Shown piece by piece: positions 47,643-64,000 of a stretch of 64,000 nucleotides of DNA; the stretch's first letter is position 1; every line of letters begins with the position of its first letter. The notes under the pieces are model-generated. The model was not told the DNA's origin. It made no database searches and saw only the letters and a program-made list of their open reading frames with translations. The DNA lies in NCBI RefSeq assembly GCF_026420145.1, contig NZ_JAPMLV010000001.1, positions 2,108,001 to 2,172,000 on the forward strand, written 5' to 3'. Source of the stretch: Enterobacter pseudoroggenkampii (lineage in GTDB: Bacteria; Pseudomonadota; Gammaproteobacteria; Enterobacterales; Enterobacteriaceae). The position numbers and the translations under genes were made by a program.

Positions 47643-49385
47643 ATGCGTGCTCTGCTCCGCGCCGCCGGTACAGACGTTGCAGCCCAGTGTTTTTTAAACG
47701 CCCTGTTGCGCGAAACGAAGGACTGGCGCTATCTCCCCGCTACCGATGCGGATGCGCTATCTGAGATCCATATCCCGCTTTCCCAAACCCAGGCGCTTCG
47801 GGTGCCGGTACGCTATTTCTCTCCCACCCAGCATCATCAGTACCGTTTCCCGGCAACGCTTATTCAGAGCAATAGTGATAACGGTGACGCCGTCACATTC
47901 TGTCAACTGGTTGATTTAATTCTTAAAAAACCGTCCGTAAAAGGCTCGCTGGATGCCGATACGCTGGCGCGTTTTAAGCAGCGCGTTCTCGAAAGCCATG
48001 TCCACACCTGGCAGGCGATCGATCTGCGTCACAGCTGGGCAACCCTGCGCGATAAGCCGCTGACGTTTGCCGACGCGGAACAGGCGCTGCTGGTCGGCCA
48101 TGCGTTTCACCCGGCACCGAAGTCGCACGAGCCGTTCAACGAAACCGAGGCGCGTCGCTATCTGCCCGATTTCGCCTCCCGCTTCCCGCTGCGCTGGTTT
48201 GCCGTTGAGAGCACGCTCGTTGCCGGCGACAGCCTGAACGTCTCCCTGCGTGAACGTCTGCTGCGCTTTGCGGCCCAGAGCGCGCCCGAGCTGCTCGGCC
48301 ACTTCACCGACACCCGTTGGCTGCTGCCGATGCACCCGTGGCAAGCCGACTATCTGCTGGAGCAGAACTGGTGCCAGCGTCTGGCGAAAGACGGTTCACT
48401 GCAGGATCTGGGTGAAGCGGGCGCACAGTGGCTGCCCACCAGCTCCTCCCGCTCGCTGTACAGCGAGACCAACAGCGACATGATTAAGTTCTCCCTCAGC
48501 GTGCGCCTGACCAACTCCGTGCGCACGCTGTCGGTGAAGGAAGTTAAGCGCGGCATGCGCCTGGCGCGCCTTGCGAAAACGGAACGCTGGCAAGATTTGC
48601 AGGCGCGCTACCCGACCATGCGCGTGATGCAGGAAGACGGCTGGGCGGGACTGCGCGATGACAGCGGCGTCGTTCAGGAAGAGAGCCTGATGGCCCTGCG
48701 CGTTAATCTGCTGTTCGATACGCCAGACACCCAGACCAACGTGCTGGTGAGCCTGACGCAGGCCGCGCCGGACGGCGGTGACAGCCTGCTCGCCGCGGCA
48801 GTGCGCCGTCTGAGTCAGCGTCTTGATTTACCGCTCGCCCAGGCCGCCCGCTGCTGGCTGGACGCCTACTGCAACCGCGTATTGCTTCCGCTGTTCAGCG
48901 CCGAGGCGGACTACGGTCTGGTCCTGCTGGCGCACCAGCAAAATATCCTCGTTGAGATGCAGCAGGATTTCCCGGTCGGGCTGATCTATCGCGACTGCCA
49001 GGGCAGCGCGTGGACCGAAGGCGCCGACGCGTGGCTGAAAGAGGCGGGTGAAACTGAGGTGGAAAACCGCTTCGGTGAGAGCCAGCTGCTGCGCTACTTC
49101 CCTTATTACCTGCTGCTGAATTCTACCTTTGCCGTTACCGCCGCCCTTGCTGCCGCCGGCTTTGACAGCGAGGAGAGCCTGATGTCCCGGGTGCGCGACG
49201 CGCTGGCCGAACTGCGCAAGACGGTAGCGCAGACCCGCTGCCTCGACTACGTGCTCGACAGCCCGATCTGGAACTGCAAAGGCAACTTCTTCTGCTACCT
49301 GCACGATCGCAATGAAAACACCATCGCCGATCCGGCGGTGATCTATTTCGACTTTAGCAACCCGTTCTACAAGGAGAAGGCGTGA
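47643..49385 (+). CDS. iucA: IucA, aerobactin synthetase subunit
   Basis: NIS synthetase that joins N6-acetyl-N6-hydroxylysine to citrate, the first of two condensations in aerobactin synthesis. The protein has 580 residues, start M-R-A-L-L-R-A-A-G-T-D-V-A-A-Q. ATP and citrate region blocks GHAFHPAPKSHEPF and PTSSSRSLYSETNSDMIKFSLSVRLTNSVRTLS match family members. TGAGG precedes the ATG. Overlaps iucB by one base. Confidence 0.95.
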   Translation: MRALLRAAGTDVAAQCFLNALLRETKDWRYLPATDADALSEIHIPLSQTQALRVPVRYFSPTQHHQYRFPATLIQSNSDNGDAVTFCQLVDLILKKPSVKGSLDADTLARFKQRVLESHVHTWQAIDLRHSWATLRDKPLTFADAEQALLVGHAFHPAPKSHEPFNETEARRYLPDFASRFPLRWFAVESTLVAGDSLNVSLRERLLRFAAQSAPELLGHFTDTRWLLPMHPWQADYLLEQNWCQRLAKDGSLQDLGEAGAQWLPTSSSRSLYSETNSDMIKFSLSVRLTNSVRTLSVKEVKRGMRLARLAKTERWQDLQARYPTMRVMQEDGWAGLRDDSGVVQEESLMALRVNLLFDTPDTQTNVLVSLTQAAPDGGDSLLAAAVRRLSQRLDLPLAQAARCWLDAYCNRVLLPLFSAEADYGLVLLAHQQNILVEMQQDFPVGLIYRDCQGSAWTEGADAWLKEAGETEVENRFGESQLLRYFPYYLLLNSTFAVTAALAAAGFDSEESLMSRVRDALAELRKTVAQTRCLDYVLDSPIWNCKGNFFCYLHDRNENTIADPAVIYFDFSNPFYKEKA

Positions 49386-50332
49386 TGGCTATCGCGAATA
49401 TCGTCCATTCCGGCTACGGCTTTCACTGCACCGCAACGGATAGCACCCTGCCGCTGGCGTTGGGTCTCGACGGCAGCGCGGTGCTGGAGCGTCTGAAGGG
49501 GTTCCCGGACGGCTGGCTGGTGGAAGCCCTGGATCAGCTGTTTGTGGCCGCCCCCGCGCTGACCGGCATTACGTTACCCTGGGCGACCTGGCAGGATGAA
49601 CCCCAGGCGCAGGCGCTGTTTCGTCTGGCAAGCGGGGATTATCTGGCGCGTGAAACCTTCTGGCAGCTGCCGCTGTGGCTGAAAGGCGAACGTCCGCAGG
49701 CCAGCGGCGGGATGCAGTATAACGAGAGCCGTCAGCTGTACTTCCCGCTGCGCCCTCGCCGTCCGCAGGGCGAAGTGTACCGCCGTTACGATCCGCAAAT
49801 TAAGCGCACCCTCAGCTTCCGCGTCGCCGACGTGGCGCTGGACGGCGAACGTTTTACCCGCTGGATGAACAACCCGCGCGTAAACGCCTTCTGGGAGATG
49901 GCGGGCCCGCAGGCCGAGCAGGAAAACTACCTGCGCCGTCAGCTCGACTCGACCTACTGCTACCCGGTTATCGGCTGCTTCGACGACCAGCCGTTCGGCT
50001 ATTTTGAACTCTACTGGGCGGCGGAAGACCGTATTGGCCGCCACTACCGCTGGCAGCCGTTTGACCGCGGGCTACACATGCTGGTGGGCGAAGAAAACTG
50101 GCGCGGTGCGCAGTATATCCGCAGCTGGCTGCGCGGTCTGAGCCACTACCTGTATCTGGATGAACCGCGCACCACGCGGATTGTCGCCGAGCCGCGCTTC
50201 GATAACCAGCGCCTGTTCCGCCATCTGGACTCTGCCGGTTTCGACACGGTGAAAGAGTTCGACTTCCCGCACAAGCGCTCGCGCCTCATCATGAGCCAGC
50301 GTCACCGCTTCTTCAGCGAGGTGGGCCTGTGA
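49385..50332 (+). CDS. iucB: IucB, N6-hydroxylysine O-acetyltransferase
   Basis: Acetylates N6-hydroxylysine with acetyl-CoA in aerobactin synthesis. The protein has 315 residues from M-A-I-A-N-I-V-H-S-G-Y-G, after AAGGAG. A GTG one codon upstream is less likely. The GNAT-type C-terminal half contains FGYFELYWAAEDRIGRHY and ends RHRFFSEVGL, as in E. coli IucB. Confidence 0.95.
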   Translation: MAIANIVHSGYGFHCTATDSTLPLALGLDGSAVLERLKGFPDGWLVEALDQLFVAAPALTGITLPWATWQDEPQAQALFRLASGDYLARETFWQLPLWLKGERPQASGGMQYNESRQLYFPLRPRRPQGEVYRRYDPQIKRTLSFRVADVALDGERFTRWMNNPRVNAFWEMAGPQAEQENYLRRQLDSTYCYPVIGCFDDQPFGYFELYWAAEDRIGRHYRWQPFDRGLHMLVGEENWRGAQYIRSWLRGLSHYLYLDEPRTTRIVAEPRFDNQRLFRHLDSAGFDTVKEFDFPHKRSRLIMSQRHRFFSEVGL

Positions 50333-52071
50333 ACGCGCAGTGGGAAAAAGTGAACCGCGAGATGGTGGCGAAGATCCTCGCCGAGCTGGAGTATGAACGC
50401 ACCCTGCGCGCCGAGCCGCTTGCGTCTGACGCCTGGCGCATCACCATGGGCAACGAGTCCTGGCAGTTTAGCGCCACGCGCGGGATCTGGGGCTGGTTGC
50501 ATATCGACCCGGACAGCCTGACCACCGCCAGCGGTGCCGCCGTGGAGGCGGAGCGCGCGCTGCTGCAGCTGGCGAAGGTGCTGGAGATGAGCGACGCGCA
50601 GACGGCGGAGCACATGGAAGATCTCTACGCCACGCTGCGCGGCGACATACAGCTGCTGCAGGCGCGTGAAGCGCTGGACGCGGACGCGCTGATCCACCTC
50701 GACCCGGACGAATTACAGTGCCTGATGCGCGGTCACCCGAAGTTTATTTTCAACAAAGGCCGCCGCGGCTGGGGTCTGGACGCGCTGCGTCAGTACGCGC
50801 CTGAGTATCGCGGACGTTTTCGTCTGCACTGGGTTGCCGTTCAGCGGGAGCATCTGGTCTGGAGCAGCGACGTCGATTGCGATATCAGCGCCCTGCTGGC
50901 CAGCGCCATGGACAACACCGAGCGCGCCCGCTTTGACGCCCGCTGGCAGGCGCTGGGTCTCGACGACAGCTGGCTGCCCGTGCCGCTGCACCCGTGGCAG
51001 TGGCAGCAGAAGATCGCCATTCATTTCCTGGCGCAGCTGGCGCGCGGTGAGATGGTTGAGCTGGGCGAGTTTGGCGATGAGTACCTGGCGCAGCAGTCTC
51101 TGCGCACGCTCACCAACGCCAGCCGTCGCGCGCCGTTTGACATCAAGCTCCCGCTGACCATCTACAACACATCCTGCTATCGCGGTATTCCGGGCAAGTA
51201 CATTGCCGCCGGACCGCTGGCCTCGCGCTGGCTGCAGCAGCAGTTCGCCACCGACGCCACGCTTGCCCGCTCTGGCGCACAGGTGCTTGGCGAACCCGCC
51301 GCCGGATATCTGTCGCATCCCGGCTATGCGGCGCTGCCGAAAGCGCCCTACCGCTATCAGGAGATGCTGGGGGTGATCTGGCGCGAGAACCCGTCCTGTT
51401 ATTTAGAAGACGGTGAACAGGCGGTGCTGATGGCGGCGCTGATGGAAACCGACAACGCCGGGCGCCCGCTGATCGACGCGTGGATTAAACGCTCGGGCTT
51501 AAGCGCCGAAGCGTGGCTGGAAAAGCTGTTTGAGGCATCGGTGATCCCGTTCTATCACCTGCTCTGCCGCTACGGCGTGGCGCTGATCGCCCACGGCCAG
51601 AACGTGACGCTGGTGATGAAGGACTCTATTCCGCAGCGCATTCTGCTGAAAGATTTCCAGGGCGATATGCGCCTGGTGGATGAAGATTTCCCGCAGGCCC
51701 AGAGCCTGCCGGAGCAGGTGAAGGCCGTCACGGCGCGCCTGAGCGCGGATTACATTATTCACGACCTGCAAACCGGTAACTTTGTGACGGTGCTGCGTTT
51801 TATCTCACGCCTCACGCTGCAAAGCGGCGTCAGCGAAACGCGTTTCTATCAGATCCTCGCCGGAGTGCTGCACCGCTATATGGCCGCGCACCCCGAGCTT
51901 GCCGATCGCTTCGCGAAGTTCGACCTGTTTAAGCCGCAAATTATTCGCGTGATCCTCAACCCGGTCAAACTGACCTTCTCCGAACACGACGGCGGCAGCC
52001 GCATGCTGCCGAACTACGTCACCGACCTTGATAACCCTCTTTTTCTGGCCTCCCGGGAGTCAGCGCAATGA
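50329..52071 (+). CDS. iucC: IucC, aerobactin synthase
   Basis: Second NIS synthetase, which adds the second hydroxylysine arm to citryl-hydroxylysine. The protein has 580 residues and begins at a GTG overlapping the iucB stop (GTGA). Family blocks are GHPKFIFNKGRRGWG, HPWQWQQKIA, LPLTIYNTSCYRGIPG and HGQNVTLVMKD. Confidence 0.95.
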   Translation: MNAQWEKVNREMVAKILAELEYERTLRAEPLASDAWRITMGNESWQFSATRGIWGWLHIDPDSLTTASGAAVEAERALLQLAKVLEMSDAQTAEHMEDLYATLRGDIQLLQAREALDADALIHLDPDELQCLMRGHPKFIFNKGRRGWGLDALRQYAPEYRGRFRLHWVAVQREHLVWSSDVDCDISALLASAMDNTERARFDARWQALGLDDSWLPVPLHPWQWQQKIAIHFLAQLARGEMVELGEFGDEYLAQQSLRTLTNASRRAPFDIKLPLTIYNTSCYRGIPGKYIAAGPLASRWLQQQFATDATLARSGAQVLGEPAAGYLSHPGYAALPKAPYRYQEMLGVIWRENPSCYLEDGEQAVLMAALMETDNAGRPLIDAWIKRSGLSAEAWLEKLFEASVIPFYHLLCRYGVALIAHGQNVTLVMKDSIPQRILLKDFQGDMRLVDEDFPQAQSLPEQVKAVTARLSADYIIHDLQTGNFVTVLRFISRLTLQSGVSETRFYQILAGVLHRYMAAHPELADRFAKFDLFKPQIIRVILNPVKLTFSEHDGGSRMLPNYVTDLDNPLFLASRESAQ

Positions 52072-53393
52072 AAACCTATGATTTCATCGGCATTGGTATC
52101 GGCCCGTTTAACCTCAGCATAGCCGCGCTGGCGGAAGGGCTGGACGGCTTTAGCTCGCTGTTTCTTGAGCGTAAACCGCACTTCTCCTGGCACCCCGGCA
52201 TGATGGTGCCGGACTGCCACATGCAGACCAGCTTCCTGAAGGATCTGGTCAGCGCCGTGGAGCCGACCAACCGCCACAGCTTCCTGAACTACCTGGTGCA
52301 GCGCAAAAAATTCTATCGCTTCCTGACCACCGAGCAGCGCACCGTTTCGCGGGAAGAGTTTGCCGATTACCTGTGCTGGGCGGCGGACAACCTCACTAAC
52401 CTGTCCTTTAGCCAGCAGGTGCAGCAGGTGAGCTTTGATGAGAAAAACGGCCTGTTTGAGGTGGTGACCCAGCGCGACCGCATCCTGGCGCGGCACGTCT
52501 GCGTAGGGATCGGTAAGCAGGTCAACCTGCCCGACTGCGTCACGACGCAGGACGATACCTGCTTCCACGCCAGCGAGATGATGCTGCGCACGCCGGATCT
52601 TACGGGCAAGCGCGTCACCGTCGTCGGCGGCGGCCAGAGCGGCGCCGACCTGTTCCTGAATATCTTCCGCGGTGAATGGGGCCAGCCGCTGAGCCTGAAC
52701 TGGGTCTCGCGCCGCAACAACTACAACGCGCTGGATGAAGCCGCCTTTGCTAACGAGTATTTCACGCCGGAGTACGTGGACAGCTTCTCCACGCTGGATG
52801 AAGAGGCCCGTCGTCAGATGCTGCACGAGCAGAAGATGACCTCCGACGGTATCACCACCGAGTCCCTGCTGGCGATTTACCGCGCCATGTATCACCGCTT
52901 CGAAGTGCTGCGTGAAAAACCCTGGGCGCATCTCCTGCCGTCCCGCTCGGTGACGTCCCTGACGCGCCAGGAAAACGGGCATCGTCTGAGCGTTCAGCAT
53001 CACCTCGACGGCGGTCGCGAGCAGCTGGAGAGCGACGTGACGATCTTTGCCACCGGCTATCGCGCCGTGCAGCCTGCGTTCCTGGCGCCGCTGTCTCACC
53101 GCCTGCATCTGGATACGGACGAAGCCTTCTGCATCAACAACGATTTCACCCTCGAATGGGACGGCCCGCAGAGCAACCGCCTGTTTGCCGTGAATGCCGG
53201 GATGCACCGTCTCGGCATTGCCGAACCCCAGCTCAGCCTGATGGCCTGGCGTGCGGCGCGCATTCTGAATCGCGCGCATGCCGACGAGCCGTTTGAGCTG
53301 GCTACCACCCCTGGCGTTATCCACTGGCGAAGCACCACCAGCCCGGAGAACAGTCAGGTTTTTAAATCATTAGCAAAAACCACCGAGTACTGA
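52068..53393 (+). CDS. iucD: IucD, L-lysine N6-monooxygenase
   Basis: FAD- and NADPH-dependent hydroxylase that starts aerobactin synthesis from lysine. The protein has 441 residues. N-terminal FAD site GIGIGPFNLSIAAL, NADPH site VVGGGQSGAD (near 187-196) and C-terminal FATGYR motif. Overlaps iucC by 4 nt (ATGA). Confidence 0.96.
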   Translation: MKTYDFIGIGIGPFNLSIAALAEGLDGFSSLFLERKPHFSWHPGMMVPDCHMQTSFLKDLVSAVEPTNRHSFLNYLVQRKKFYRFLTTEQRTVSREEFADYLCWAADNLTNLSFSQQVQQVSFDEKNGLFEVVTQRDRILARHVCVGIGKQVNLPDCVTTQDDTCFHASEMMLRTPDLTGKRVTVVGGGQSGADLFLNIFRGEWGQPLSLNWVSRRNNYNALDEAAFANEYFTPEYVDSFSTLDEEARRQMLHEQKMTSDGITTESLLAIYRAMYHRFEVLREKPWAHLLPSRSVTSLTRQENGHRLSVQHHLDGGREQLESDVTIFATGYRAVQPAFLAPLSHRLHLDTDEAFCINNDFTLEWDGPQSNRLFAVNAGMHRLGIAEPQLSLMAWRAARILNRAHADEPFELATTPGVIHWRSTTSPENSQVFKSLAKTTEY

Positions 53394-53419
53394 CACACAC
53401 AATCAGGGTCAATATAACA

Positions 53420-55609
53420 ATGAAACGTTCTCATCTTTGGGTTTTAAATCCTTGTTTGCTTGCAATGCTTTCTACCTCTGCGTGGGCGGAAGAACAAAAG
53501 GAAGAAAATATCGTGGTCTCCGCCAGCCGCGCGCACCGCAGCGTGGCGGAGATGGCGCAGACTACCTGGGTCATTGAGCGGGCTGAAATTGAGCAGCAGG
53601 TTCAGGGCGGGAAAGAGATTAAAGAAGTGCTGGCGCAGCTGATCCCGGGCATGGACGTCAGCAGCCAGGGACGTACCAACTACGGCATGAACCTGCGCGG
53701 CCGCTCCATGATGGTGATGGTGGACGGCGTGCGCCTGAACTCGTCCCGCAGCGACAGCCGCCAGCTCGACTCTATCGATCCGTTCAACATTGACCGTATC
53801 GAAGTCATCTCCGGTGCCACCTCACTCTACGGCGGCGGCAGCACCGGCGGCCTGGTGAACATCGTCACCAAAAAGGGCCAGCCTGAGACCGAAGTCGAGT
53901 TCCAGACGGGTGCTAAAAGCGGGTTCAACAGCCACAACGACCATGATGAGAACGTGTCGGCAGCGGTCAGCGGTGGCAACGATAACGCTTCCGGTCGTCT
54001 GTCGGTGTCGTATCAGCGCTACGGCGGCTGGTATGACGGCAACGGCGACGAGGTGATCATTGATAACACCCAGACCGGCCTCCAGTATTCCGACCGTATC
54101 GATGTGATGGGCACAGGCACCATCAACATTGACGATCATCAGCAGCTGCAGCTGACGACGCAGTACTACAAGAGCGAGTCCGACGGCAAGCATGGGCTGT
54201 ATCTCGGGAAAAACTTCTCGGCGGTAACGGGGGATGCGACCGCCTACAACAAAGGTAACCTCGATTCTGACCGCGTGCCGGGTACCGAGCGCCATCTGAT
54301 CAACCTGCAATACTCCAATACCGACTTCTGGGGCCAGGATCTGGTCGCGCAGATTTACTATCGCGACGAGAGCCTGACCTACTATCCGTTCCCGACCCTG
54401 ACCAAAGGCGTGGTGAGCAGCATCGGCGCGTCGCAGCAGAAAACCGATTTCTACGGCGGCAAGCTGACGCTGAACAGCAAGCCGGTGGACGATTTAACGC
54501 TGACCTGGGGTATGGATGCCGACCACGAAACCTTCGACGCCAACCAGCAGTTCTTTAACCTGAGCAAAGCCGCGGCGAGCGGCGGCATGGAGCTGGATAA
54601 CGCCTACAACGTGGGCCGCTACCCGGGCTACAGCATCACCAACCTCGCCCCGTTCCTGCAGGCCAGCTACGATATTGACGCCATCACCCTGAGCGGCGGC
54701 GTGCGCTACCAGTACACCGAGAACAAGGTAGACGATTTTGTCGGCTACACCCAGCAGCAGGCCATCGCCACCGGGAAAGCCACCTCCGCCGACGCGGTGC
54801 CGGGTGGGAAAACCGATTACAACAACTTCCTGTTTAACGCCGGGATCCTTGGTCGCCTGACCGAACAGCAGCAGGTATGGTTTAACTTCTCCCAGGGCTT
54901 CGAAATTCCGGACCTGGCGAAGTACTACGGCTCTGGCACCTATCAGCTCAGCAACGGTCACTATCGCCTGCTGAACAGCGTCAACGTGAACGACTCGAAG
55001 CTGGACGGTATCAAGGTCAACGCTTATGAGCTGGGCTGGCGCTACACCGGGGATAACCTGCGCACGCAGGTTGCGGCGTATTACTCGCTCTCGGATAAAA
55101 CCATCACCATCAACAAGACGGACATGACCATCAATCTGGAAGACGACAAGCGTCGTATCTACGGGGTGGAAGGTCAGGTGGACTATTTCTTCACCGACAG
55201 CGACTGGAGCACCGGGGCGAACTTTAACGCCATTAAGTCGGAAACCCGCGAAAACGGGAAATGGGAGAAGCTGACGGTCGACAGCGCCAGCCCGTCGAAA
55301 GCCAGCGCGTGGGTCAACTGGGCGCCGGGCGACTGGACCCTGCGCGTGCAGAGCACGCAGACCTTTGACGTGTCAGACTCCGACGGCAAGAAGATCGATG
55401 GCTATAACACGGTCGACTTCCTGGGCAGCTACGCCCTGCCGGTGGGTAAAGTCAGCTTCAGCGTGGAAAACCTGCTGGACAAAGACTACACCACCGCCTG
55501 GGGCCAGCGCGCGCCGGGGCTGTATAGCCCAACCTACGGTGCACCGGGTCTGTATACCTATAAAGGGCGCGGACGGACGTTTGGTCTGAACTACTCCGTA
55601 CTGTTCTGA
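53420..55609 (+). CDS. iutA: IutA, ferric aerobactin outer-membrane receptor
   Basis: TonB-dependent receptor for ferri-aerobactin and cloacin DF13. The protein has 729 residues. Signal peptide ends STSAWA near residue 23, followed by a TonB box-like ENIVVSA, a plug domain and a 22-strand barrel ending LNYSVLF. Last gene of the operon, 26 nt after iucD, and followed by a strong terminator. Confidence 0.96.
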   Translation: MKRSHLWVLNPCLLAMLSTSAWAEEQKEENIVVSASRAHRSVAEMAQTTWVIERAEIEQQVQGGKEIKEVLAQLIPGMDVSSQGRTNYGMNLRGRSMMVMVDGVRLNSSRSDSRQLDSIDPFNIDRIEVISGATSLYGGGSTGGLVNIVTKKGQPETEVEFQTGAKSGFNSHNDHDENVSAAVSGGNDNASGRLSVSYQRYGGWYDGNGDEVIIDNTQTGLQYSDRIDVMGTGTINIDDHQQLQLTTQYYKSESDGKHGLYLGKNFSAVTGDATAYNKGNLDSDRVPGTERHLINLQYSNTDFWGQDLVAQIYYRDESLTYYPFPTLTKGVVSSIGASQQKTDFYGGKLTLNSKPVDDLTLTWGMDADHETFDANQQFFNLSKAAASGGMELDNAYNVGRYPGYSITNLAPFLQASYDIDAITLSGGVRYQYTENKVDDFVGYTQQQAIATGKATSADAVPGGKTDYNNFLFNAGILGRLTEQQQVWFNFSQGFEIPDLAKYYGSGTYQLSNGHYRLLNSVNVNDSKLDGIKVNAYELGWRYTGDNLRTQVAAYYSLSDKTITINKTDMTINLEDDKRRIYGVEGQVDYFFTDSDWSTGANFNAIKSETRENGKWEKLTVDSASPSKASAWVNWAPGDWTLRVQSTQTFDVSDSDGKKIDGYNTVDFLGSYALPVGKVSFSVENLLDKDYTTAWGQRAPGLYSPTYGAPGLYTYKGRGRTFGLNYSVLF

Positions 55610-55615
55610 TCCTGC

Positions 55616-55640
55616 GCGCCGCCTGCGGGCGGCGCATTTT
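55616..55640 (+). terminator. terminator of the aerobactin operon
   Basis: GCGCCGCC (55616-55623), loop TGCG, GGCGGCGC (55628-55635), then ATTTT. It lies 7 nt after the iutA stop. Confidence 0.85.
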
Positions 55641-55773
55641 GTTGTGTAATTTCAACGCGAATTTGCTATAAAATCAGCGATTTGCTGAAATTGTCGGCAA
55701 ACGAACGAAAAGTGCGTTTTCACCCTTTGACAAGGCGTACCGAGGTCGCTACTATGCGCCTCGTTCACACGAT

Positions 55774-55849
55774 TCCTCTGTAGTTCAGTCGGTAGAACGG
55801 CGGACTGTTAATCCGTATGTCACTGGTTCGAGTCCAGTCAGAGGAGCCA
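55774..55849 (+). tRNA. tRNA-Asn (anticodon GTT)
   Basis: A 76-nt cloverleaf with acceptor stem TCCTCTG/CAGAGGA, anticodon loop CTGTTAA, TpsiC arm GGTTCGAGTCC and encoded CCA. Identical to E. coli tRNA-Asn as recalled. Tandem copies exist in enterics, so the exact name (asnT, U, V, W) is not assigned; the mtfA neighbourhood suggests asnT. Confidence 0.97.
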
Positions 55850-55883
55850 AATTTGAAAAGCCTGCTTTTGAAGCAGGCTTTTT
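55834..55883 (+). repeat. left direct repeat (attL-like), tRNA-Asn 3' end plus terminator
   Basis: The last 16 bases of tRNA-Asn and its terminator. The 36 bases from 55848 recur identically at 59776, and the 14 bases before them recur with three mismatches. Together with the right copy it bounds the helicase-nuclease gene, as expected for integration at a tRNA 3' end. Confidence 0.8.
55856..55883 (+). terminator. tRNA-Asn terminator
   Basis: AAAGCCTGCTT and AAGCAGGCTTT pair around a TTG centre, followed by T-rich sequence. It belongs to the left repeat. Confidence 0.85.
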
Positions 55884-56137
55884 GCTTTTCATTATTCCCA
55901 TGCTAGCTCAAGATAGCTTCTCGTCAGGCAGGCCCTTCATTTGCAGCACCATAAGAATGCGTTCCAGTTGTTTGAACGCTAATTCCTCTCAGTAAAACTG
56001 GAAAACATATTAGCCGCTGTTACTCATATTGTATTTCCATACAAAGATGCCCCCTTTGGTAGGGTTAAAATATCTGCCTCTGTGTTATTCTCTAACCATT
56101 AATTTCAGGGAGATACTCAGGTTAAGGCTCTTTTAGC
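55884..56137. other. non-coding left part of the tRNA-Asn element
   Basis: About 250 bp, more A+T-rich than the flanks, between the tRNA terminator and the helicase gene. No integrase, no convincing small gene and no repeat array was seen. The helicase promoter should lie near 56060-56120. Confidence 0.5.
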
Positions 56138-59100
56138 ATGATGCAAAACTCGTCTAAAGATATCCTTTCAGCGTGGCATGATTATGTGAAATTCAGTGGC
56201 GCAGAAAAGAGTAAAATACCGGCCAGCAAGGTGCATGAGCACCAACAACTCATGCTCGGTATAAATAACTGTGAAGAAAACCAGAGCGGCGTAATACTCC
56301 GTGTTACGCCTGAAATGCGCAACCACTGGCGCCAGCGTTTCGTCGAATATGACGAAAAGGGTAGAATTACCCATATTGAGCCTGTTAACCTGCTTTTTCC
56401 GGTACTGCGCTGTATCGAAAACGAGCGAGGTAAGGCCAATGTAAAATACCTTCCGCTGTTCTCTTTCCCCCTCCCCAAATCATTTTTTGAACAGAACGAA
56501 AACACCCTGCTAGTTCCCGTCAAAGATGGACAACTTGTTAGCGCATTCCCCTTCGCTTTTCGCGAAATGTTTGGTATTCAGCTGGATGAGCTCGGTGAAA
56601 ACCGTCATATGATGAGTATCGTTAGCGCGCTCACGGGATGTAAATATGACACGTTCCTTGAGGCGTTTAAGGCTCTTCAGAAATGGGTCACTCAGCAATC
56701 AAACAGTAAATATCAGGGGCTGGAAACTGCGTTTAATGCCCTGGTGGCTCCGCTGCATAATGAGGATTACAACCTCAAGCGTGATGCGGAAGATTTCACC
56801 TGGCTGTGTAATAACGCAGTTGGTGATTTCCCGTTACTGGAGCAGTATCTCAGCCATATCCATAGTGACGAGAAGGCCCCACATATTCACGAAGTGGTGA
56901 CTGGCGGTTTGTTTGAAACACAATATCCTCTGGGCCATGGGCAGATGGCGGCAATACAGGCGATTAATCAGGATGAGCGCCTGGTTGCTGTACAAGGCGC
57001 GCCTGGTACGGGTAAAACCACGCTATTCAAGTCACTCATCGCACAACAACTGGTTGCCAGAGCACTGGCGATTGCTGATGGAAAGGACCAGAATTTCGGC
57101 ATGCTGGTCACGTCCACGGCAATAAAAGCGGTGGAGAATATCATTGACGATCTGCGCAGTGACCCTGCAACTGAGGATCTAGACTGGTTATGGTTTCATA
57201 GCGGCTCGAACGAACAGGTTCAGCATGAGCTTACCCGGCTTGAGAAACTGATTGGTCGTTGGCGACAGGAAAGCTATGACCAACAGCAGCAGCACGATTT
57301 TTTAGCGGTTTTACTCAAGCATCGTGACGAGATGAACGCTTGTTACCGGGCGTATCTGAATGAAAAGGCAGTAGCGATACAATCTGTTGTGGATTGTGGT
57401 CTGGACACCCAACTAGCAAAAGAGCTACCAGCTCGTTTCATGGAAAAAATTCCCTCGCTCGCCGCTCATGCACAGGTACTCGGAATTGATGTTTCGCTTC
57501 ATCGCCCCGACGACCTGGATACCTTAGCCTGTCAGTTAGAACAGCGCCTGCAGGAAATTAGGGAGATAAAAACGCAGCGTCTACAGGCCAGCAGAATTTA
57601 CCAGACGTTGCAGGCGACATGGCCGCAGCAGCATAGTCTGGAGCAGATACTTAGCTGGATGGATTCACCGCTACGCCCAGCCCTGGAGCTGCATTACCGC
57701 GACTACCCGCGTAAAGGGATAAAGCGTTATCTGGCTCGTTTTTTCGAGAGGAAATATCCAGCAAGGTTGCAACAGATGAGCCTGGCTGCACCGGAGGACT
57801 TTCTCAAATTCAGTCTTTCTTCCCTTCCCCATCGTCAGCTGGCTGCTCTGGCTGATGCTGGGGAAATGCTTTCACAGCAGTTAGATAGCCTGGCGCTACT
57901 GGCGCTGCTCCTGCATGCGGAACCCGAAGCTCAACAGGAAGTTGACCTGCTGACTCTTAATACTGAAGTAGAAGAATTGCAGGCACAATGGCGTCAGGTC
58001 ATCCGGGCGCAACAGCTAACGGCACAGTATCAACAGCGTTATCCGGAAGGTAACTGGTGCGACATTTTGCGTAAACGCTTTATCAGGCAACACCGGGAAA
58101 TGTTCGAAGCCGCTATCGGTTATCTCTGGCAGGAACAACTGAAACGGAAAATTGAGCTTGAAGAGGTGCTGACCCACTGGCGGGCCCTGATGAGTAAGCG
58201 TCGCAGTGCGGGCTACTATCGCTGGCTGGATAAGCTAGATGATTTCTATCGCGCACTGTCTCTTGTATATCCAGTAATGGCGACCACGCTGGTTTCCGCG
58301 TGGAAGGTTGCTGGTTATCGTAAGCTCGATGAACTCAAGGGGCATAAACCATGGCACCTGGCACTGTGCGACGAAGCGGGCATGATTTCGCTTGAATCCC
58401 TCGTGCCCCTTTTGAGTCGCAGTGAGAAAGCGATGATTGTTGGCGATCCTCTGCAAATTGAACCCATTAGAAACCTGTCAGAAAACATGCAAACACAGTT
58501 GCGTGAGCGTCATTTCGCCAGCAACAATACGTTGTATGAGCGTGTTTCACCTGCAAGCGTCACGGGCTGGCACCGTGCTGCTGGTACGCTTTCCGGCAAG
58601 GTAGACGATACGGGTAATGGCATCATTCTCGATGAGCATCGCCGGTGCCAGCAAGCTATTGCCGACCTTTTCATCCGACTGGCGAACTACCATGGCGTCA
58701 GCGTGGAAACTGCCCCCCCTTCCAGCCGTATTGCCAGCGCGTTTGAGAAATCAGGCGGGCATCATTTGATGTTCTACAGCGTAGAAGGCCAGAAAGGCGA
58801 TACGGTTAACACTAATCTGGATGAAGTTGATGCTATCGAGCTATTGCTGGATAAGCTGGAAGAAGCTGGTTACGATCTGACTGCCGATGTTGGCATCGTC
58901 ACTCCCTATAGCAATCAGAAGTCATTGTTGATTAAACGTCTTGCGCAACGAATGAATCACTGGCAGAAAAACTGCATTGGTACAGTGCATCAGTTTCAGG
59001 GCGTAGGCTTTGAGGTCATCATTTATAGTCCGGTTATTTTTCATCCTCTTGATAATCCGAATTTTCAAAACGACGCACCAAACATGCTGAATGTCGCGGT

Positions 59101-59743
59101 TTCACGCGCAAAGCAGCAATTTATCGTCGTAGGTAACCATCATCGATTGCGGCAAGCAGGTGGATACCTGAAAGTCCTTGCAGATAGCGTTGCCGAAAGC
59201 TTCCTGCTTGAACAGGGTAGCCAGCATCCGAATTTTGCCAGTCTAAGCCAGACTCCCCGTCTACAGCGTTATTATCGCGACTGCGAACATATTGCCGCAT
59301 TTAGCGCTCTGGCCAGCCAGTGTGAACAGGAGCTGGTTATCATCGCTCCGTGGATCCGTCGAGGAGGTAAGAATTATCAGAGGCCGGAGCTGGCGCAGTT
59401 GGTAGCCACGCAGCGGCGTGGTGTCAGGGTTAAAGTTTATTACGGCTACTATCACCAGTGCGTGGATCGTGCGGAAGATAATGATGAGACTCTGGTTGCC
59501 GAGTACCGCGAACAACTAGGAAAAGAGAATATTATCCGGTTGACGGAAGGGACACATGAAAAGGTAATGATGATCGATGGCCGCTACATTGTTCTCGGGA
59601 GTTGGAACTGGCTATCTCATGGTTATCACCATAGCTGCGAGCGCAGTAAACAGTTCACTAATGCGATTCGTCATGAGATCAGTGCAGAGCTGGATGATGC
59701 ATCGCTGGTGAGGGAGCTTAGGGAGAGGTTGCGGCTGGAATAA
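56138..59743 (+). CDS. SF1 helicase-PLD nuclease fusion, candidate Mokosh type II (MkoC-like) defence protein
   Basis: The protein has 1201 residues. After an N-terminal part of about 250 residues lies an SF1 (UPF1-like, COG1112) helicase: Walker A GAPGTGKT (287-294), a long helical insertion (about 360-730), DEAG (745-748), GDPLQIEP (769-776), and motif VI VSRAKQQF (988-995). The C-terminus holds one phospholipase-D nuclease motif, HEK at 1140-1142, Asp1147 and GSWN at 1154-1157. A single large helicase-PLD protein is the hallmark of Mokosh type II anti-phage systems; identity with that family is inferred from architecture. It is the only gene of an element inserted at tRNA-Asn. Codon use is less GC-rich than the flanks. 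Two tandem ATGs start it; the ribosome site is weak. Confidence 0.8.
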   Translation: MMQNSSKDILSAWHDYVKFSGAEKSKIPASKVHEHQQLMLGINNCEENQSGVILRVTPEMRNHWRQRFVEYDEKGRITHIEPVNLLFPVLRCIENERGKANVKYLPLFSFPLPKSFFEQNENTLLVPVKDGQLVSAFPFAFREMFGIQLDELGENRHMMSIVSALTGCKYDTFLEAFKALQKWVTQQSNSKYQGLETAFNALVAPLHNEDYNLKRDAEDFTWLCNNAVGDFPLLEQYLSHIHSDEKAPHIHEVVTGGLFETQYPLGHGQMAAIQAINQDERLVAVQGAPGTGKTTLFKSLIAQQLVARALAIADGKDQNFGMLVTSTAIKAVENIIDDLRSDPATEDLDWLWFHSGSNEQVQHELTRLEKLIGRWRQESYDQQQQHDFLAVLLKHRDEMNACYRAYLNEKAVAIQSVVDCGLDTQLAKELPARFMEKIPSLAAHAQVLGIDVSLHRPDDLDTLACQLEQRLQEIREIKTQRLQASRIYQTLQATWPQQHSLEQILSWMDSPLRPALELHYRDYPRKGIKRYLARFFERKYPARLQQMSLAAPEDFLKFSLSSLPHRQLAALADAGEMLSQQLDSLALLALLLHAEPEAQQEVDLLTLNTEVEELQAQWRQVIRAQQLTAQYQQRYPEGNWCDILRKRFIRQHREMFEAAIGYLWQEQLKRKIELEEVLTHWRALMSKRRSAGYYRWLDKLDDFYRALSLVYPVMATTLVSAWKVAGYRKLDELKGHKPWHLALCDEAGMISLESLVPLLSRSEKAMIVGDPLQIEPIRNLSENMQTQLRERHFASNNTLYERVSPASVTGWHRAAGTLSGKVDDTGNGIILDEHRRCQQAIADLFIRLANYHGVSVETAPPSSRIASAFEKSGGHHLMFYSVEGQKGDTVNTNLDEVDAIELLLDKLEEAGYDLTADVGIVTPYSNQKSLLIKRLAQRMNHWQKNCIGTVHQFQGVGFEVIIYSPVIFHPLDNPNFQNDAPNMLNVAVSRAKQQFIVVGNHHRLRQAGGYLKVLADSVAESFLLEQGSQHPNFASLSQTPRLQRYYRDCEHIAAFSALASQCEQELVIIAPWIRRGGKNYQRPELAQLVATQRRGVRVKVYYGYYHQCVDRAEDNDETLVAEYREQLGKENIIRLTEGTHEKVMMIDGRYIVLGSWNWLSHGYHHSCERSKQFTNAIRHEISAELDDASLVRELRERLRLE

Positions 59744-59761
59744 CAGACTCATTGAATGCTC

Positions 59762-59811
59762 CCAGTCTGATGAGACAAATTTGAAAAGCCTGCTTTTGAA
59801 GCAGGCTTTTT
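59762..59811 (+). repeat. right direct repeat (attR-like)
   Basis: Copy of the tRNA-Asn 3' end and terminator: 36 identical bases from 59776, preceded by 14 bases with three mismatches to the tRNA end. It starts 18 nt after the helicase stop, and its hairpin can terminate the helicase mRNA. Confidence 0.8.
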
Positions 59812-59864
59812 TATTTTTCTCCTCCACATCAAAAGAATTACGAAGTCATGATGAGGTCCCCCGT

Positions 59865-60824
59865 TCATGGCTTCATAACGATACGACCAAGCGGTTTCGC
59901 TGTCTCAGCGTATTCATGGGCCGCGGCGGCGTTAGCCAGGGGGAAGACACGGTCAATGACAACCCTGATGTGCCCTGCAGCCACAGCCTGCAACATGTCG
60001 TCCACGCTTGTCCGAACGCCAGGCCTTTCAAAAAGTGGCCCCATAAATACCCCCATGAGGGTCTGGTTAGACTGCATTGGCGGCCACAGGTCGACGGTCA
60101 GGCTGCCACCGCCCGCATTACCGACGAAGACGAGACGTCCTTCCGGAGCGAGTGCAGAAAGCGAAGCTGGCAACGTCGTCCCTACCGGATCGATGACGAG
60201 GTCAACCCCGGCGCCATGGGTGTACTCTCGTACACTGTCCACGACGTCATGCTGTGCACGATCCACGACATGATCGGCACCAAGTTCCAGCAGCCGGTTT
60301 ATTCGCTGCGTTCCGCTTGCCACGGCGATGACCGTCGCGCCTGCCTGTGAGGCAAGCTGAACGGCCGCGAGCCCCACGCCCCCCGCTGCTGCCTGAATCA
60401 GGACGGTTTCTCCGTGCCGGAGCATGCCTCGTATGAACAGGCAATGATGTGCGGTTCCAAAAGAGATCGGTACCACCGCCGCTTCTGCTGCATCCACCCT
60501 GTCCGGTATAAGCCAGGTACGTTCCGCGAGCACGGCCCAACTTTCCGCATGCGATCCCTGCATGCTAAAAGCAGCCACTCTGTCTCCAACCTTACGGCTA
60601 CGGACTTTCGATCCGACGGCAACCACTGTGCCCGCGGCCGCGTAGCCGACGACCCATGAAGGGCCAGGCGGCGGAGTTGAGCGGCGGTTGATCAAATCTC
60701 CCCCTTCAATCGAGATAGCCTCGACAGAAATCAGGACATCGTCAGGCCCTGCGACCGGATCCGGGACATCGATATATCGCAGGACGCCGGGAGCGCCTTC
60801 CACGTCATAAACCGCTGCTTTCAT
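59865..60824 (-). CDS. Zinc-independent MDR quinone oxidoreductase
   Basis: NADPH-dependent medium-chain reductase of the quinone oxidoreductase (QOR) type. The protein has 319 residues from the ATG at 60824; a TTG one codon upstream is less likely. The cofactor motif AAAGGVGLAAVQLA is near residue 145 and the catalytic-domain GD is in RSRKVGDRVAAF. No zinc-binding Cys cluster is seen. The start overlaps the ridA-family stop by one base, so the two form an operon. Confidence 0.85.
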   Translation of the reverse strand: MKAAVYDVEGAPGVLRYIDVPDPVAGPDDVLISVEAISIEGGDLINRRSTPPPGPSWVVGYAAAGTVVAVGSKVRSRKVGDRVAAFSMQGSHAESWAVLAERTWLIPDRVDAAEAAVVPISFGTAHHCLFIRGMLRHGETVLIQAAAGGVGLAAVQLASQAGATVIAVASGTQRINRLLELGADHVVDRAQHDVVDSVREYTHGAGVDLVIDPVGTTLPASLSALAPEGRLVFVGNAGGGSLTVDLWPPMQSNQTLMGVFMGPLFERPGVRTSVDDMLQAVAAGHIRVVIDRVFPLANAAAAHEYAETAKPLGRIVMKP

Positions 60825-61240
60825 CAATTTACCTCTGTCTTATCATGACTCGTGGGCAGCCGGGCAATCACCTTAATCTCAAACTGGAATCCGTACAGCC
60901 ACGTCACGCCGATCCCCGTCAACGTCGGGTAAGGCGCTTCCCCCCAATATTCTGGCAGGATACTCCAGATAGCGTCGAGGTTTGACTCGGGATCGACGAC
61001 AAAGAGGGTCACGTCAACCACGTCACTGAACGTGCAGCCCGCAGCCGTGAGCACAGCATTAAGGTTATCGAATGCCAGCCGGACCTGCGCATTGAGATCC
61101 TCTTCAGGCGAACCATCCTCCCGGCTACCCACCTGCCCCGAAACAAACAGGAAGCCGTTAGATTTGATGGCGGGTGAATACCGATTGCGCTCATAGAGCG
61201 CCTGGCGTCCGAAGGGAAAAACGGCTTCGCGTGTTGTCAT
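60824..61240 (-). CDS. RidA/YjgF-family protein
   Basis: The protein has 138 residues. Rid proteins hydrolyse reactive enamine/imine intermediates; subgroups without the catalytic Arg may do other chemistry. Typical segments here are FLFVSGQVG, QVRLAFDNLNAVLTAAG and the DVTLFVVD strand. The usual IPxR-type Arg near position 105 is not obvious. First gene of an operon with the quinone reductase, divergent from a LysR gene. Confidence 0.85.
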   Translation of the reverse strand: MTTREAVFPFGRQALYERNRYSPAIKSNGFLFVSGQVGSREDGSPEEDLNAQVRLAFDNLNAVLTAAGCTFSDVVDVTLFVVDPESNLDAIWSILPEYWGEAPYPTLTGIGVTWLYGFQFEIKVIARLPTSHDKTEVN

Positions 61241-61336
61241 GTTTGTACCTTTGCAATAAGGCGAAATCTGCCCGGTGAATATAAAGACACTTTACAGGCG
61301 CCACATCGGACGGATAAACAAGCGACTTTGTCCATC

Positions 61337-61359
61337 ATTGTTTGTAATATCCAAACAAT
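61337..61359. promoter_or_regulatory. probable LysR operator
   Basis: ATTGTTTG-TAATATC-CAAACAAT is a perfect 8-bp inverted repeat with a 7-bp spacer, and contains a T-N11-A core. It lies 22 nt upstream of the LysR gene and about 100 nt upstream of the divergent RidA gene, the standard arrangement for autoregulation and target control. Confidence 0.7.
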
Positions 61360-61381
61360 CGGTGAAAAGAGAGGACAAGGG

Positions 61382-62320
61382 ATGGATCGTTTCGATGCGA
61401 TGCGCGCCTTTGCTCGCGTGGTGGAAGCAGGCAGTTTCACAAAGGCTGCCCAAACGCTTCATATGAGCAAAACCACGGTGACGCAGCTTATTCAGCAGCT
61501 GGAAGCGCGCCTGCGCGTCAGGCTGCTCCATCGCACTACCCGCAGGCTCGGTGTGACTCCTGATGGCGCGGTCTACTACGAGCGCGTAATCCGTCTGCTG
61601 GCGGACATGGAGGATGCTGAAAACAGCCTCTCCAGTGCGACGATGACCCCCAGGGGACGCCTGCGGATAGATGTGCCCACTCCGCTCGCTCGCCTGTTGC
61701 TGGTGCCCGCGCTACCGGCTTTTCATGCACGCTACCCTGATATCCAGTTCGACATGGGCGTGAGCGACCGGGTGGTGGATCTGATCGGCGACAATGTGGA
61801 TTGCGTCCTGCGCGGTGGCGAAATCAACGACCAGTCCCTGATCGCACGCCATGTCGGCGATTTGCAAATCGGTGTTTACGTCGCCCCGAGTTATGTGGAA
61901 CGCCTCGGCGCCCCTGCGCACCCGCAAGAGCTGGAAAACACCAACCATCGCATAGTGGGATTCTTGTCCTCACGCACCGGTAAGGTTGATCCTCTGGTAC
62001 TGCGCAGTGAGAGTGAACATATTGAAATCACTGGCAGCTATGTGCTTGCCGTGGATGATGGCAATGCTTACCTCGAAGCTGGATTAGCCGGGCTAGGCGT
62101 GATTGCGCTACCCGCCTATATGGCGGCAGCACATCAGGCTTGTGGCTCCTTGATTCCGCTATTTGAACAATGGCGGATTAAGCCAATGCCCCTGTACCTG
62201 GCGTTTCCGCCGAACCGCCATGTCAACGCCAGACAGCGCGTTTTTATTGATTGGATCGTTGAATTGATGCAGCAGCATGTCCCTATTTCCAATAATAAGT
62301 CACTCCCTCCCAGCCCCTGA
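61382..62320 (+). CDS. LysR-family regulator (divergent to RidA/quinone reductase)
   Basis: The protein has 312 residues from M-D-R-F-D-A-M-R-A-F-A-R-V; 18 codons upstream in frame cover the operator and are rejected. Helix-turn-helix at about 18-45 (FTKAAQTLHMSKTTVTQLIQQLEARL). Probably senses a quinone, electrophile or similar compound and controls the divergent operon; the ligand is not known. Confidence 0.88.
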   Translation: MDRFDAMRAFARVVEAGSFTKAAQTLHMSKTTVTQLIQQLEARLRVRLLHRTTRRLGVTPDGAVYYERVIRLLADMEDAENSLSSATMTPRGRLRIDVPTPLARLLLVPALPAFHARYPDIQFDMGVSDRVVDLIGDNVDCVLRGGEINDQSLIARHVGDLQIGVYVAPSYVERLGAPAHPQELENTNHRIVGFLSSRTGKVDPLVLRSESEHIEITGSYVLAVDDGNAYLEAGLAGLGVIALPAYMAAAHQACGSLIPLFEQWRIKPMPLYLAFPPNRHVNARQRVFIDWIVELMQQHVPISNNKSLPPSP

Positions 62321-62328
62321 TTCGCTCA

Positions 62329-63240
62329 TTAGGGTTGGTTACTTTCCACAGCACTCACCGCTCGCCGCCAGGCCGCCACTTCCTCCTCCAGCCATGCCTT
62401 AAAGAGTGTCACCTCCGGCTTCACCTCCGTAGACTGCGCCGTTACCAACCAGTAAGGCCAGGGATATGGTGCGGTGATGGAGGTTAGCTGGACCAGTTCA
62501 CCTCGGGTGATGGCATCCTGAACCAGAGAGCGACGCTCCAGCGCGATACCTTTCCCGAGTCGAACGGCTTCGATAATGATATTGGAGTCGTTAACGCATA
62601 AACCGTCAGGCACGATCTCTTTCTCAAGACCCGCATTCATGCACCACGTTTTCCACGACTCCATAGAGAAAATAATATGACTCTTTGCAATCTCCGCTGG
62701 CGTAGCGGGCAGCACGCCCCCGTTAAAGCCCGGTGCGGCCACCACAATAAGCTCATCGGAAAAAAGGTAATGGCTTTCACTCCCTTCCCAGTTCCCCTGC
62801 CCCATCCGTATCGCGATGTCTATCCCTTCCTGCTGCAGGCTGGTGACCGTCAGGCTGGCCTGGATCCGCAGGGTGATAAGCGGATATTTCGCCCGAAAAC
62901 GAGCCAGACGCGGTAATAACCAGTGGCATCCAAATGACGGCACCATCGCCAGCGTCAGCTCCTGCTTTCTCGGCTTCACCTGTACGAGTCGGGTGGCATC
63001 CGCAATATGGTTCAACGCCTCGCGTACCTGTAAGGCATAGAGCCGCCCTTCTTCGTTGATCTGCACTCCTCGCCCCTGACGGATAAAGAGCTTAACGCCC
63101 ACCATCTCCTCCAGCGTTTTGATCTGCTGGCTGATAGCGGAATGGGTAACGTGGAGTTCTTTCGCCGCCAGCGTCACGCTGCCGAGACGGGCGACGGCTT
63201 CAAAGCTTCGCAAACTGGCAATGGGTGGAAAATCCGACAT
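62329..63240 (-). CDS. LysR-family regulator, GcvA-like
   Basis: The protein has 303 residues, start M-S-D-F-P-P-I-A-S-L-R-S-F-E-A-V-A-R. Helix-turn-helix near 21-48 (VTLAAKELHVTHSAISQQIKTLEEMVG). The N-terminal PPxxxLRxFEAVAR and the overall pattern resemble the GcvA/AmpR group. Divergent from the glutathione S-transferase gene, which it probably regulates. Confidence 0.87.
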   Translation of the reverse strand: MSDFPPIASLRSFEAVARLGSVTLAAKELHVTHSAISQQIKTLEEMVGVKLFIRQGRGVQINEEGRLYALQVREALNHIADATRLVQVKPRKQELTLAMVPSFGCHWLLPRLARFRAKYPLITLRIQASLTVTSLQQEGIDIAIRMGQGNWEGSESHYLFSDELIVVAAPGFNGGVLPATPAEIAKSHIIFSMESWKTWCMNAGLEKEIVPDGLCVNDSNIIIEAVRLGKGIALERRSLVQDAITRGELVQLTSITAPYPWPYWLVTAQSTEVKPEVTLFKAWLEEEVAAWRRAVSAVESNQP

Positions 63241-63410
63241 GAAAGCACTTCCTTATCTGCGCTGGATATACAGCGGCAACCTGACCATATGTCAGTAATA
63301 CTAACCCTTACGGTAAGATACTGAAGATATTCGCTATGCAAATTGTATTGTAATGTCTGGTCATCCTCTTCAATGACGCGTTATTTCACAGAGACAGGAA
63401 AACGGGAACG

Positions 63411-64000
63411 ATGATTAAGCTTGTTGGCATGATGGATTCACCTTATGTACGGCGCGTGGCGATCTCCCTTGAGCTTTATGGCGTTGAGTTTGAAAGCCAG
63501 CCGCTGTCAGTCTTTAGCACCTTCGACGCGTTCTCCCGGATCAACCCCGCGGTAAAAGCCCCGACGCTGGTTCTGGATAACGGAATACGGCTGATGGACT
63601 CCTCGCTGATACTGAATTATTTTGAGGCTCAGGCTGCCCCCGAGCGGAAACTCCTGCCCGTCGCGCCGGATGCGCTGACAAAGGATCTTCAGACGCTGGG
63701 CTTTATCCTCGCCGCCGCTGAAAAAGCGGTGCAAAATGTGTATGAACACAACCAGCGTCCGGCGGAAAAGCAGCACGCTTTATGGGTCGAACGCATTACA
63801 ATTCAGCTGCTGGCGGCCTGCAGGGTATGGAATGCCTTACTGGAGACACGTCCGGCGACTGCAACTCCCGATCAGGTTGCCGTCACGAGCACGGTTGTCT
63901 GGACGTTTATTCAGTCGATGATCCCGCACGTCGTTAACGCAGCGGATTTTAGAGAGATTCAGGCGTTTGCCGAATCATTCGAATCACAGGCGGTCTTCAG
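63411..64000 (+). CDS. Glutathione S-transferase, N-terminal part
   Basis: The gene runs off the right edge; about 196 codons are visible. It starts M-I-K-L-V-G-M-M-D-S-P-Y-V-R-R-V-A-I-S-L-E after an AGGA-containing leader. The thioredoxin-like N-domain (1-80) has the MDSPYVRRV active-site loop and the MDSSLILNYFE glutathione-binding segment; a helical C-domain follows. Divergent from a LysR gene. Resembles the YibF/YfcF type; the exact subgroup is not settled. Confidence 0.88.
   Translation, partial: MIKLVGMMDSPYVRRVAISLELYGVEFESQPLSVFSTFDAFSRINPAVKAPTLVLDNGIRLMDSSLILNYFEAQAAPERKLLPVAPDALTKDLQTLGFILAAAEKAVQNVYEHNQRPAEKQHALWVERITIQLLAACRVWNALLETRPATATPDQVAVTSTVVWTFIQSMIPHVVNAADFREIQAFAESFESQAVF

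Follow-up and report, generated by a model that had tools for sequence, protein, structure and literature searches.

Background

The Yersinia high-pathogenicity island (HPI) is an asn-tRNA island with its own P4-type integrase. Here we analyse a segment at the 3' end of a tRNA-Asn gene of Enterobacter pseudoroggenkampii, which holds the putative defence gene mkoC between two direct repeats. It lies in a stretch of 64,000 nucleotides (assembly GCF_026420145.1, contig NZ_JAPMLV010000001.1, positions 2,108,001 to 2,172,000), which in its whole length we call the window and to which coordinates refer; handles beginning with G denote genomes, and positions in other sequences follow handles beginning with L. 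With a probability of about 0.7, we read 55851-59778 as the trimmed, probably immobile rest of an integrase-less defence cassette that entered the tRNA-Asn 3' end by site-specific recombination and whose relatives are mobilised in cis. The tRNA-Asn 3' end is also the target of GIE492 of Klebsiella (PMC4891358), which carries its own P4-type integrase, whereas the window segment does not.

Two described kinds of element come close to what we see. In cis-mobilisable elements (CIMEs) the integration and transfer genes have been lost and attL and attR are kept, and a newly arriving element can be added at this site (PMC5704250). The tRNA-Asn cassettes resemble them in having no integrase, in retaining attL and attR in relatives of the window segment and in lying in tandem with an integrase-bearing island at the same site. 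As described there (PMC5704250), however, CIMEs are known from the decay of integrative and conjugative or integrative and mobilisable elements, whereas our cassettes are single defence systems and the attR in the window no longer looks functional. At the left end, too, they differ, with a tRNA terminator that is foreign to several hosts in place of an integrase arm, although the right arm is shared with integrase islands. The H47 genomic island of Escherichia coli is integrase-less, yet excises and integrates in recombination-deficient K-12 (PMC3191183). Like the window segment it is a small island between extensive imperfect direct repeats, and its excision and integration are supplied by the cell; its cargo is a 12.6 kb microcin region and its mobility was tested (PMC3191183).

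Defence hotspots of E. coli (PMC10121019) and Pseudomonas (PMC10250203) likewise hold variable defence cargo at tRNA-linked sites and, according to these accounts, how it moves is unclear; a 2023 survey of E. coli defence islands says this of defence genes without mobility genes (PMC10121019). The tRNA-Asn loci differ in that they show boundaries, arms, foreign terminators and tandem cassettes, which suggest how such a site fills. Among the open-licence papers listed, judged by titles and the beginnings of abstracts, we found no description of integrase-less defence cassettes at tRNA-Asn that are capped by a terminator.

The insertion and its empty sites

The features of the locus, with the two flanking genes last, are as follows.

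55774..55849, + strand: tRNA-Asn (GTT), the insertion site (ARAGORN)
55834..55850, + strand: left attachment core, the last 16 tRNA bases plus 1 (identical 17-mer at both ends in G003, G007 and the E. coli mkoC island)
55851..55885, + strand: tRNA-proximal terminator hairpin, left end of the cassette (fold -18.8 kcal/mol; terminator match 55852-55883; identical sequence in G131, where it is foreign)
55900..55967, - strand: mazF/pemK relic, corresponding to the 3' end of the gene (DNA alignment with shuffles)
56080..56137, + strand: mkoC leader, kept with the gene in E. coli and Citrobacter (alignments start at 56080 in L001 and L049)
56138..59743, + strand: mkoC, helicase-PLD fusion of 1201 aa (PADLOC, Pfam, dN/dS)
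59747..59764, + strand: deletion scar, an 18-mer (also present in G131, past Gabija and at 108 nt to the left of the attachment core)
59762..59778, + strand: damaged right attachment core, mismatched at 3 of 17 bases and without an arm on its left side (771 of 1000 shuffles reach as high an arm score)
59779..59813, + strand: second terminator, the resident one displaced by the insertion (the same type lies directly 3' of the tRNA, before qor, in empty sites)
53420..55609, + strand: left flank, TonB-dependent siderophore receptor gene (Pfam Plug and TonB_dep_Rec_b-barrel; full-length junction with tRNA-Asn present in 22 of the 61 genus genomes), which we take to be iutA-like
59865..60827, - strand: right flank, qor, zinc-type alcohol dehydrogenase/quinone oxidoreductase-like gene (Pfam; directly after the single repeat in G004, G021 and G022)

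The direct-repeat pair 55834-55889/59762-59817 is identical at 51 of 56 bases. A first-pass annotation of this DNA had reported a 50-bp repeat with 36 identical bases followed by three mismatches. The repeat is real (47 of 50 bases over that span), but its order is the reverse: the first 14 bases, at the tRNA 3' end, contain the three mismatches, and the 36 identical bases come after them. These 36 are mainly the terminator hairpin, and the mismatches sit in the 17-nt probable integrase core. The pair stands out because the remaining direct-repeat families in 54000-61500 are shorter (18-24 nt) and less alike (74-89% identity between copies). The annotation's statement that only a helicase-PLD fusion gene, and no integrase, lies between the copies agrees with our results. 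A single long open reading frame (ORF), 56138-59743, is found there, the other listed ORFs of at least 80 aa overlapping it, and tblastn (E<=1e-4) found no relatives of three asn-type tyrosine integrases in 50000-64000; the search did not extend to recombinases of other types, for which the segment leaves no space. The GC content of the element is 49.5% against 56.0% in the window, a value matched by 7 of 302 windows of gene length.

Comparison with relatives shows what the site looks like when unoccupied. The iutA-tRNA query is matched in 52 of 61 genus genomes, in 30 of them partially (some at contig ends) and in 22, the ones surveyed, at full length. Three of these 22 (G004, G021, G022) have a single core and terminator running straight into qor, so that both the insertion and its empty site can be recognised by comparison. 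Four (G038, G003, G019, G011) hold an integrase-less cassette with a second boundary, and no integrase relatives were found between their sites. An integrase island whose right end was not reached occupies the site in one (G051), and in another, G045, a 461-aa RCC1-repeat gene (L060 554-1939) precedes a core-like site. Elsewhere the next genes are mazEF (3; G009, G025, G055), rid (4; G001, G013, G018, G040), lysR (1; G014) or others (5; G002, G027, G034, G042, G049). The two outcomes for which a search of relatives had been proposed, one-copy empty sites and other cargo, were therefore both found, the former in 3 of 22 genomes and the latter in 3 more.

The cargo at the occupied sites varies. 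G038 has mkoC at the same site with 96% identity. In G003 8.1 kb between the sites hold mazEF, a 269-aa ORF without a Pfam or PADLOC match, and QatABCD (E-values 0, 7e-141, 9.6e-210 and 2.7e-124). G019 and G011 each carry one 1344-aa gene (L061 894-4928; L066 14744-18778), whose products have a sub-threshold NACHT match in Pfam, whereas PADLOC gave none at E<=0.001; close to the C-terminus, a D...EVK stretch noticed by eye could presumably be a PD-(D/E)xK nuclease. At a different tRNA-Asn, G007 has a 2.4-kb cassette with a 381-aa gene (L113 3473-4618) and a 159-aa helix-turn-helix ORF. The 381-aa protein gives weak matches to a TIR effector (2.7e-05) and to nucleoside deoxyribosyltransferase. 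Comparison of these integrase-less cassettes at tRNA-Asn reveals a common order: a core comes first, then a tRNA-type terminator, a mazF gene or mazF relic (present in some), one or more cargo genes, the right arm and a second core.

As in asn-tRNA islands, the window element is inserted at the tRNA-Asn 3' end, as the tRNA, the core and the empty sites indicate, but it has no integrase gene of its own beside the tRNA. As in CIMEs, no integration genes were found, there being neither an integrase relative nor another sizeable ORF. The left core is intact, while the right core retains 14 of 17 bases and the right arm is missing; on account of the latter two the window element is at most a decayed CIME derivative. 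Its relatives in G003 and G007 have intact cores at both ends. Membership of the element in HPI-like integrase islands was rejected, since it has no integrase.

Two side observations concern this tRNA-Asn. Siderophore-type ORFs, by eye like an aerobactin set, adjoin it at 49382-55609 of the window, Pfam backing the receptor. Judged by eye, the ORFs of the G051 island (L063 300-19901), which lies at the same tRNA-Asn, are similar to a type VI secretion cluster.

A larger cassette in another genus

A larger version with mkoC and Gabija is recognised by comparison in G131, which belongs to another genus, and a scar links the two. In G131 the left end, the relic and mkoC are those of the window (95.2% over 4028 bp), and GajA/GajB, arm and core come after them. 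A copy of the 18 bases at 59747-59764, which immediately follow mkoC in the window, lies in G131 at L056 17774, on the far side of Gabija and 108 nt to the left of the core. The longest match was 13 in 2000 shuffles; with another seed, 500 shuffles gave one match of 17 and none of 18. The window copy is a deletion remnant of a larger mkoC+Gabija cassette, in which, on the simplest account, one deletion took out Gabija and another the right arm. G038 has lost most of the core, too.

The mazF relic (55900-55967, 68 nt) was compared with intact genes by shuffling. Scores as high were reached in 0 of 1000 shuffles against the gene of G003 and in 1 of 1000 against that of G055; the relic was undetectable against the copies of G211 (248 of 1000) and Leclercia (371 of 1000) and gave no tblastn match with intact MazF at E<=0.01. 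The G011 cassette likewise opens with a mazF relic. At a 3.2-kb core locus G131 and eight g1 genomes share only 73-75% identity, whereas the element, relic included, is 95.2% identical. The integrase-less left end therefore moved between genera and, since G131 shares both the relic and the left end, predates the transfer.

Left ends, terminators and right arms

The left ends fall into two kinds. In the five integrase-bearing ones (E. coli, G051, G015, G035, G001) a GATTCA-type arm lies to the right of the core in 5/5, with folds of -3.5 to -10.5 kcal/mol, while in 8/8 tabulated integrase-less left ends a terminator hairpin follows the core, with folds of -17.8 to -26.2 kcal/mol. The table is a chosen set and leaves out the integrase islands of G006, G029 and G031. 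Several of these terminators are foreign to their host. Behind the mkoC-bearing tRNA-Asn of G131 lies the window's type, its three other tRNA-Asn genes having another type, and the terminator at the mkoC-bearing tRNA-Asn of G211 is likewise foreign with respect to three other copies. G019 and G011 have a foreign terminator to the left of the cassette and the native type to its right and at three other copies each; G007, in which one other tRNA-Asn copy was seen, agrees on a foreign left terminator.

These left ends bear on a second explanation, that an integrase-bearing mkoC island landed at the tRNA-Asn of the window and later lost its integrase and most of its cargo in place. The E. coli mkoC (84% DNA identity) is indeed found inside a tRNA-Asn island with two tyrosine integrases, which we assign to the P4 type, as well as Septu genes and a Tmn-like gene; next to the Citrobacter mkoC lies a fragment of an integrase, and the right end of the window segment has clearly decayed. 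Yet G131 shares the integrase-less left end and relic at 95.2% against 73-75% in the core locus, which makes that state older than the transfer, and deletion of an integrase would not place a terminator after the core, where all eight tabulated integrase-less left ends have one. We therefore regard in-place decay as unlikely, though deserving of some weight.

The right arm, by comparison of sequences, is common to integrase-bearing islands and integrase-less cassettes. Against the arm of the E. coli island, the arms of G131, G003, G019, G011 and the G018 orphan were each equalled by 0 of 1000 shuffles, while the window sequence was equalled by 771 of 1000. Used as a query against the 61 genus genomes, the E. 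coli attR found 14 sites in 12 genomes; of these sites five have an asn-type integrase on the same contig, four are at integrase-less cassettes (G003, G007, G011, G019), three are orphans (a second G003 site, G008, G018) and two are in G001. Asn-type integrases occur in 7 of the 61 genus genomes, in 5 of the 7 with arm and core on the same contig. The cassette-bearing genomes also hold other integrases with 31-57% identity to the E. coli one, none of them tied to tRNA-Asn.

Three observations on such sites may be added. Arm and core without a neighbouring cassette lie after lysR in G018 (L072 2069-2110) and in G003 (L036 15005). The orphan arm and core of G008 (L114 8135) has no tRNA-Asn within the 18 kb read. 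In G035 the integrase island at tRNA-Asn (L116 9168-18604) carries genes matching the PADLOC candidates PDC-M54A and PDC-M54B. The orphan sites suggest older insertions.

Homologous recombination between tRNA-Asn copies, terminators or flanking core genes could in principle have placed the segment with no integrase involved. Genomes have about four identical tRNA-Asn genes with common upstream and terminator sequence, and spread through flanks has been proposed for the Pseudomonas hotspots, so far as that account goes (PMC10250203). G038 could share its segment with the window through the flanks, the identity being 97.0% in iutA, 96.3% in mkoC and 91.9% in qor. Flank exchange may thus be a route of spread within the genus. 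As the origin of the insertion we consider it improbable: site-specific insertion leaves just the order observed (core, foreign terminator, cargo, arm, core, resident terminator), the right-hand homology in the cassettes is limited to core and terminator, and the right arm matches that of integrase islands.

The damaged right end also bears on the reading that the window segment is a complete minimal mobile element, moved by an integrase acting in trans. It has repeats at both ends and one intact gene under purifying selection, and H47, which also lacks an integrase and has long imperfect repeats, does excise in K-12 (PMC3191183). The absent arm (771 of 1000 shuffles as high), the right core with mismatches at 3 of 17 bases and the G038 core, which is mostly missing, leave this reading with very little credit. 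Because the right arm is missing and the core has three mismatches, the window segment is probably immobile in its present form. The first-pass annotation had offered either a minimal defence element or the decayed rest of a larger island, and had found it unclear by what mechanism a 3.9-kb segment with no recombinase moves. The decayed-remainder alternative gains support from the empty sites, the other cargo and the scar that points to an mkoC+Gabija ancestor. Tyrosine integrases encoded by islands with the same tRNA-Asn attachment arm are a plausible source of recombinase; the present 3.9-kb segment, however, is probably not a mobile unit.

That the second repeat is an unrelated conserved terminator, with no insertion at all, would fit the fact that its best-kept 36 bases form a terminator hairpin, but is scarcely credible and was rejected given the one-copy empty sites (G004, G021, G022; their absence would, according to the annotation, have counted against the insertion), the core-like bases to the left of the second terminator, the same layout around unrelated cargo, and the presence of mkoC in only 2/61 genus and 3/392 family genomes.

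Tandem cassettes and a model of accretion

In G131 there are three attachment sites, which delimit the mkoC+Gabija cassette and then a 1.66-kb cassette with a 293-aa gene, after which comes a terminator of native type. The terminator to the right of the first attachment site belongs to the second cassette, and the native-type one follows the third site. The second cassette recurs in G001 (93.2% over 1829 bp). The 293-aa gene is common to G001 and G131 (L117 7358-8239; L122 1125-2002), being split over two frames in G131, and its product has no Pfam or PADLOC match at E<=0.1. The right flank on the G001 cassette contig is 93-96% identical to the downstream flank of one particular tRNA-Asn in G038, G019 and G003. 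The corresponding tRNA-Asn of G001, matched by its partner 1.8 kb away, carries an integrase island. Across the contig gap, G001 would thus appear to hold a cassette behind an integrase island, which is the composite that accretion predicts.

We infer that the cassettes may be mobilised in cis by integrase-bearing islands. An integrase-bearing island would insert at the tRNA core beside a cassette, and the composite of island and cassette would excise between the outermost sites and integrate elsewhere. If the island later left, the donor terminator and the cargo would stay behind, and the predicted residue is core, donor terminator, cargo, arm, core and resident terminator. This predicted order is the one seen in G007, G019, G011 and G131. 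The relatives of the window segment probably form a class of integrase-less defence cassettes that borrow the integrase of other islands.

Several observations tell against site-specific entry and mobilisation in cis. The mobility of the cassettes rests on comparison of sequences, and the G001 composite on flank orthology across a contig gap. The window has no right arm. In the window, G038 and G003 the left and right terminators are of one type and so say nothing about terminator travel, and within one genome the copies differ somewhat in terminator type (G038b, G003b, G011c). No integrase was detected in G045, whose left end, having neither a cassette terminator nor an exact arm, fits neither kind. 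The E. coli mkoC island encodes integrases, so that in-place loss is possible for some cases. Two of the nine mkoC loci read were not seen at a tRNA-Asn, those of Citrobacter sp. wls619, with the integrase fragment alongside, and G356. The stretches read for Leclercia, G211 and Erwinia contain no second core with <=4 mismatches and hence do not show a right boundary; the Leclercia locus does have a second copy of the terminator.

The mkoC gene and its distribution

The 1201-aa product matches MkoC in PADLOC (E 2e-96, residues 82-1169 against profile positions 68-1109 of 1136), and Pfam AAA_11, AAA_12 and PLDc_2 are above cut-off. It contains the motifs GAPGTGKTT at 287, LCDEAGM at 743 and HEKVMMID at 1140, which we take to be Walker A, Walker B and HKD, respectively. 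A helicase part and a PLD-like nuclease part are thus found by sequence in one protein. In published work Mokosh type II combines an RNA helicase and a PLD nuclease (PMC10013915), and like it the window system is a single gene with helicase and PLD domains, from which no sequence difference was found (PMC10013915, PMC10952713). Its family suggests that the gene encodes a Mokosh type II anti-phage protein, presumably with the helicase as sensor and the PLD nuclease as effector. mkoC is under purifying selection, with dN/dS of 0.141 against G038, 0.128 against G131, 0.079 against Leclercia and 0.086 against E. coli.

Besides the two genus and three family genomes, mkoC occurs in 14 of 5426 E. 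coli genomes, three of which were read for their loci, and is therefore rare. Seven of the nine loci read lie at or behind tRNA-Asn (window, G038, G131, G032 (the Leclercia locus), G211, Erwinia sp. S63 and E. coli). In one other E. coli strain examined, cbl is directly 3' of the corresponding tRNA-Asn. Carriage by a known phage or plasmid was rejected: the best match in phage records (5 records) has 27.9% identity and the best plasmid match 37.9%, and of three stretches in viral contigs that fitted a pattern none was confirmed.

Implications for tRNA-Asn genes of enterobacteria

More broadly, and at not quite even odds, we speculate that enterobacterial tRNA-Asn genes are docks for tandem, integrase-less, terminator-capped immune cassettes, which islands with P4-type integrases would shuffle between genera by accretion and cis-mobilisation, the window segment being a fossilised one-gene cassette. 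Each cassette would contain one gene or a few, with tRNA core and terminator as its left limit and integrase arm and core as its right one, and would be somewhat like an integron cassette in using the recombinase of another element. The tRNA-Asn loci make the hotspot question testable, since their boundaries are precise, a helper integrase can be proposed and the terminator may record the origin of a cassette. The cassettes described here provide candidate defence genes, namely those for the 1344-aa NACHT-like, the 381-aa and the 293-aa proteins, and the core-terminator-cargo signature could be used elsewhere to find undescribed defence genes.

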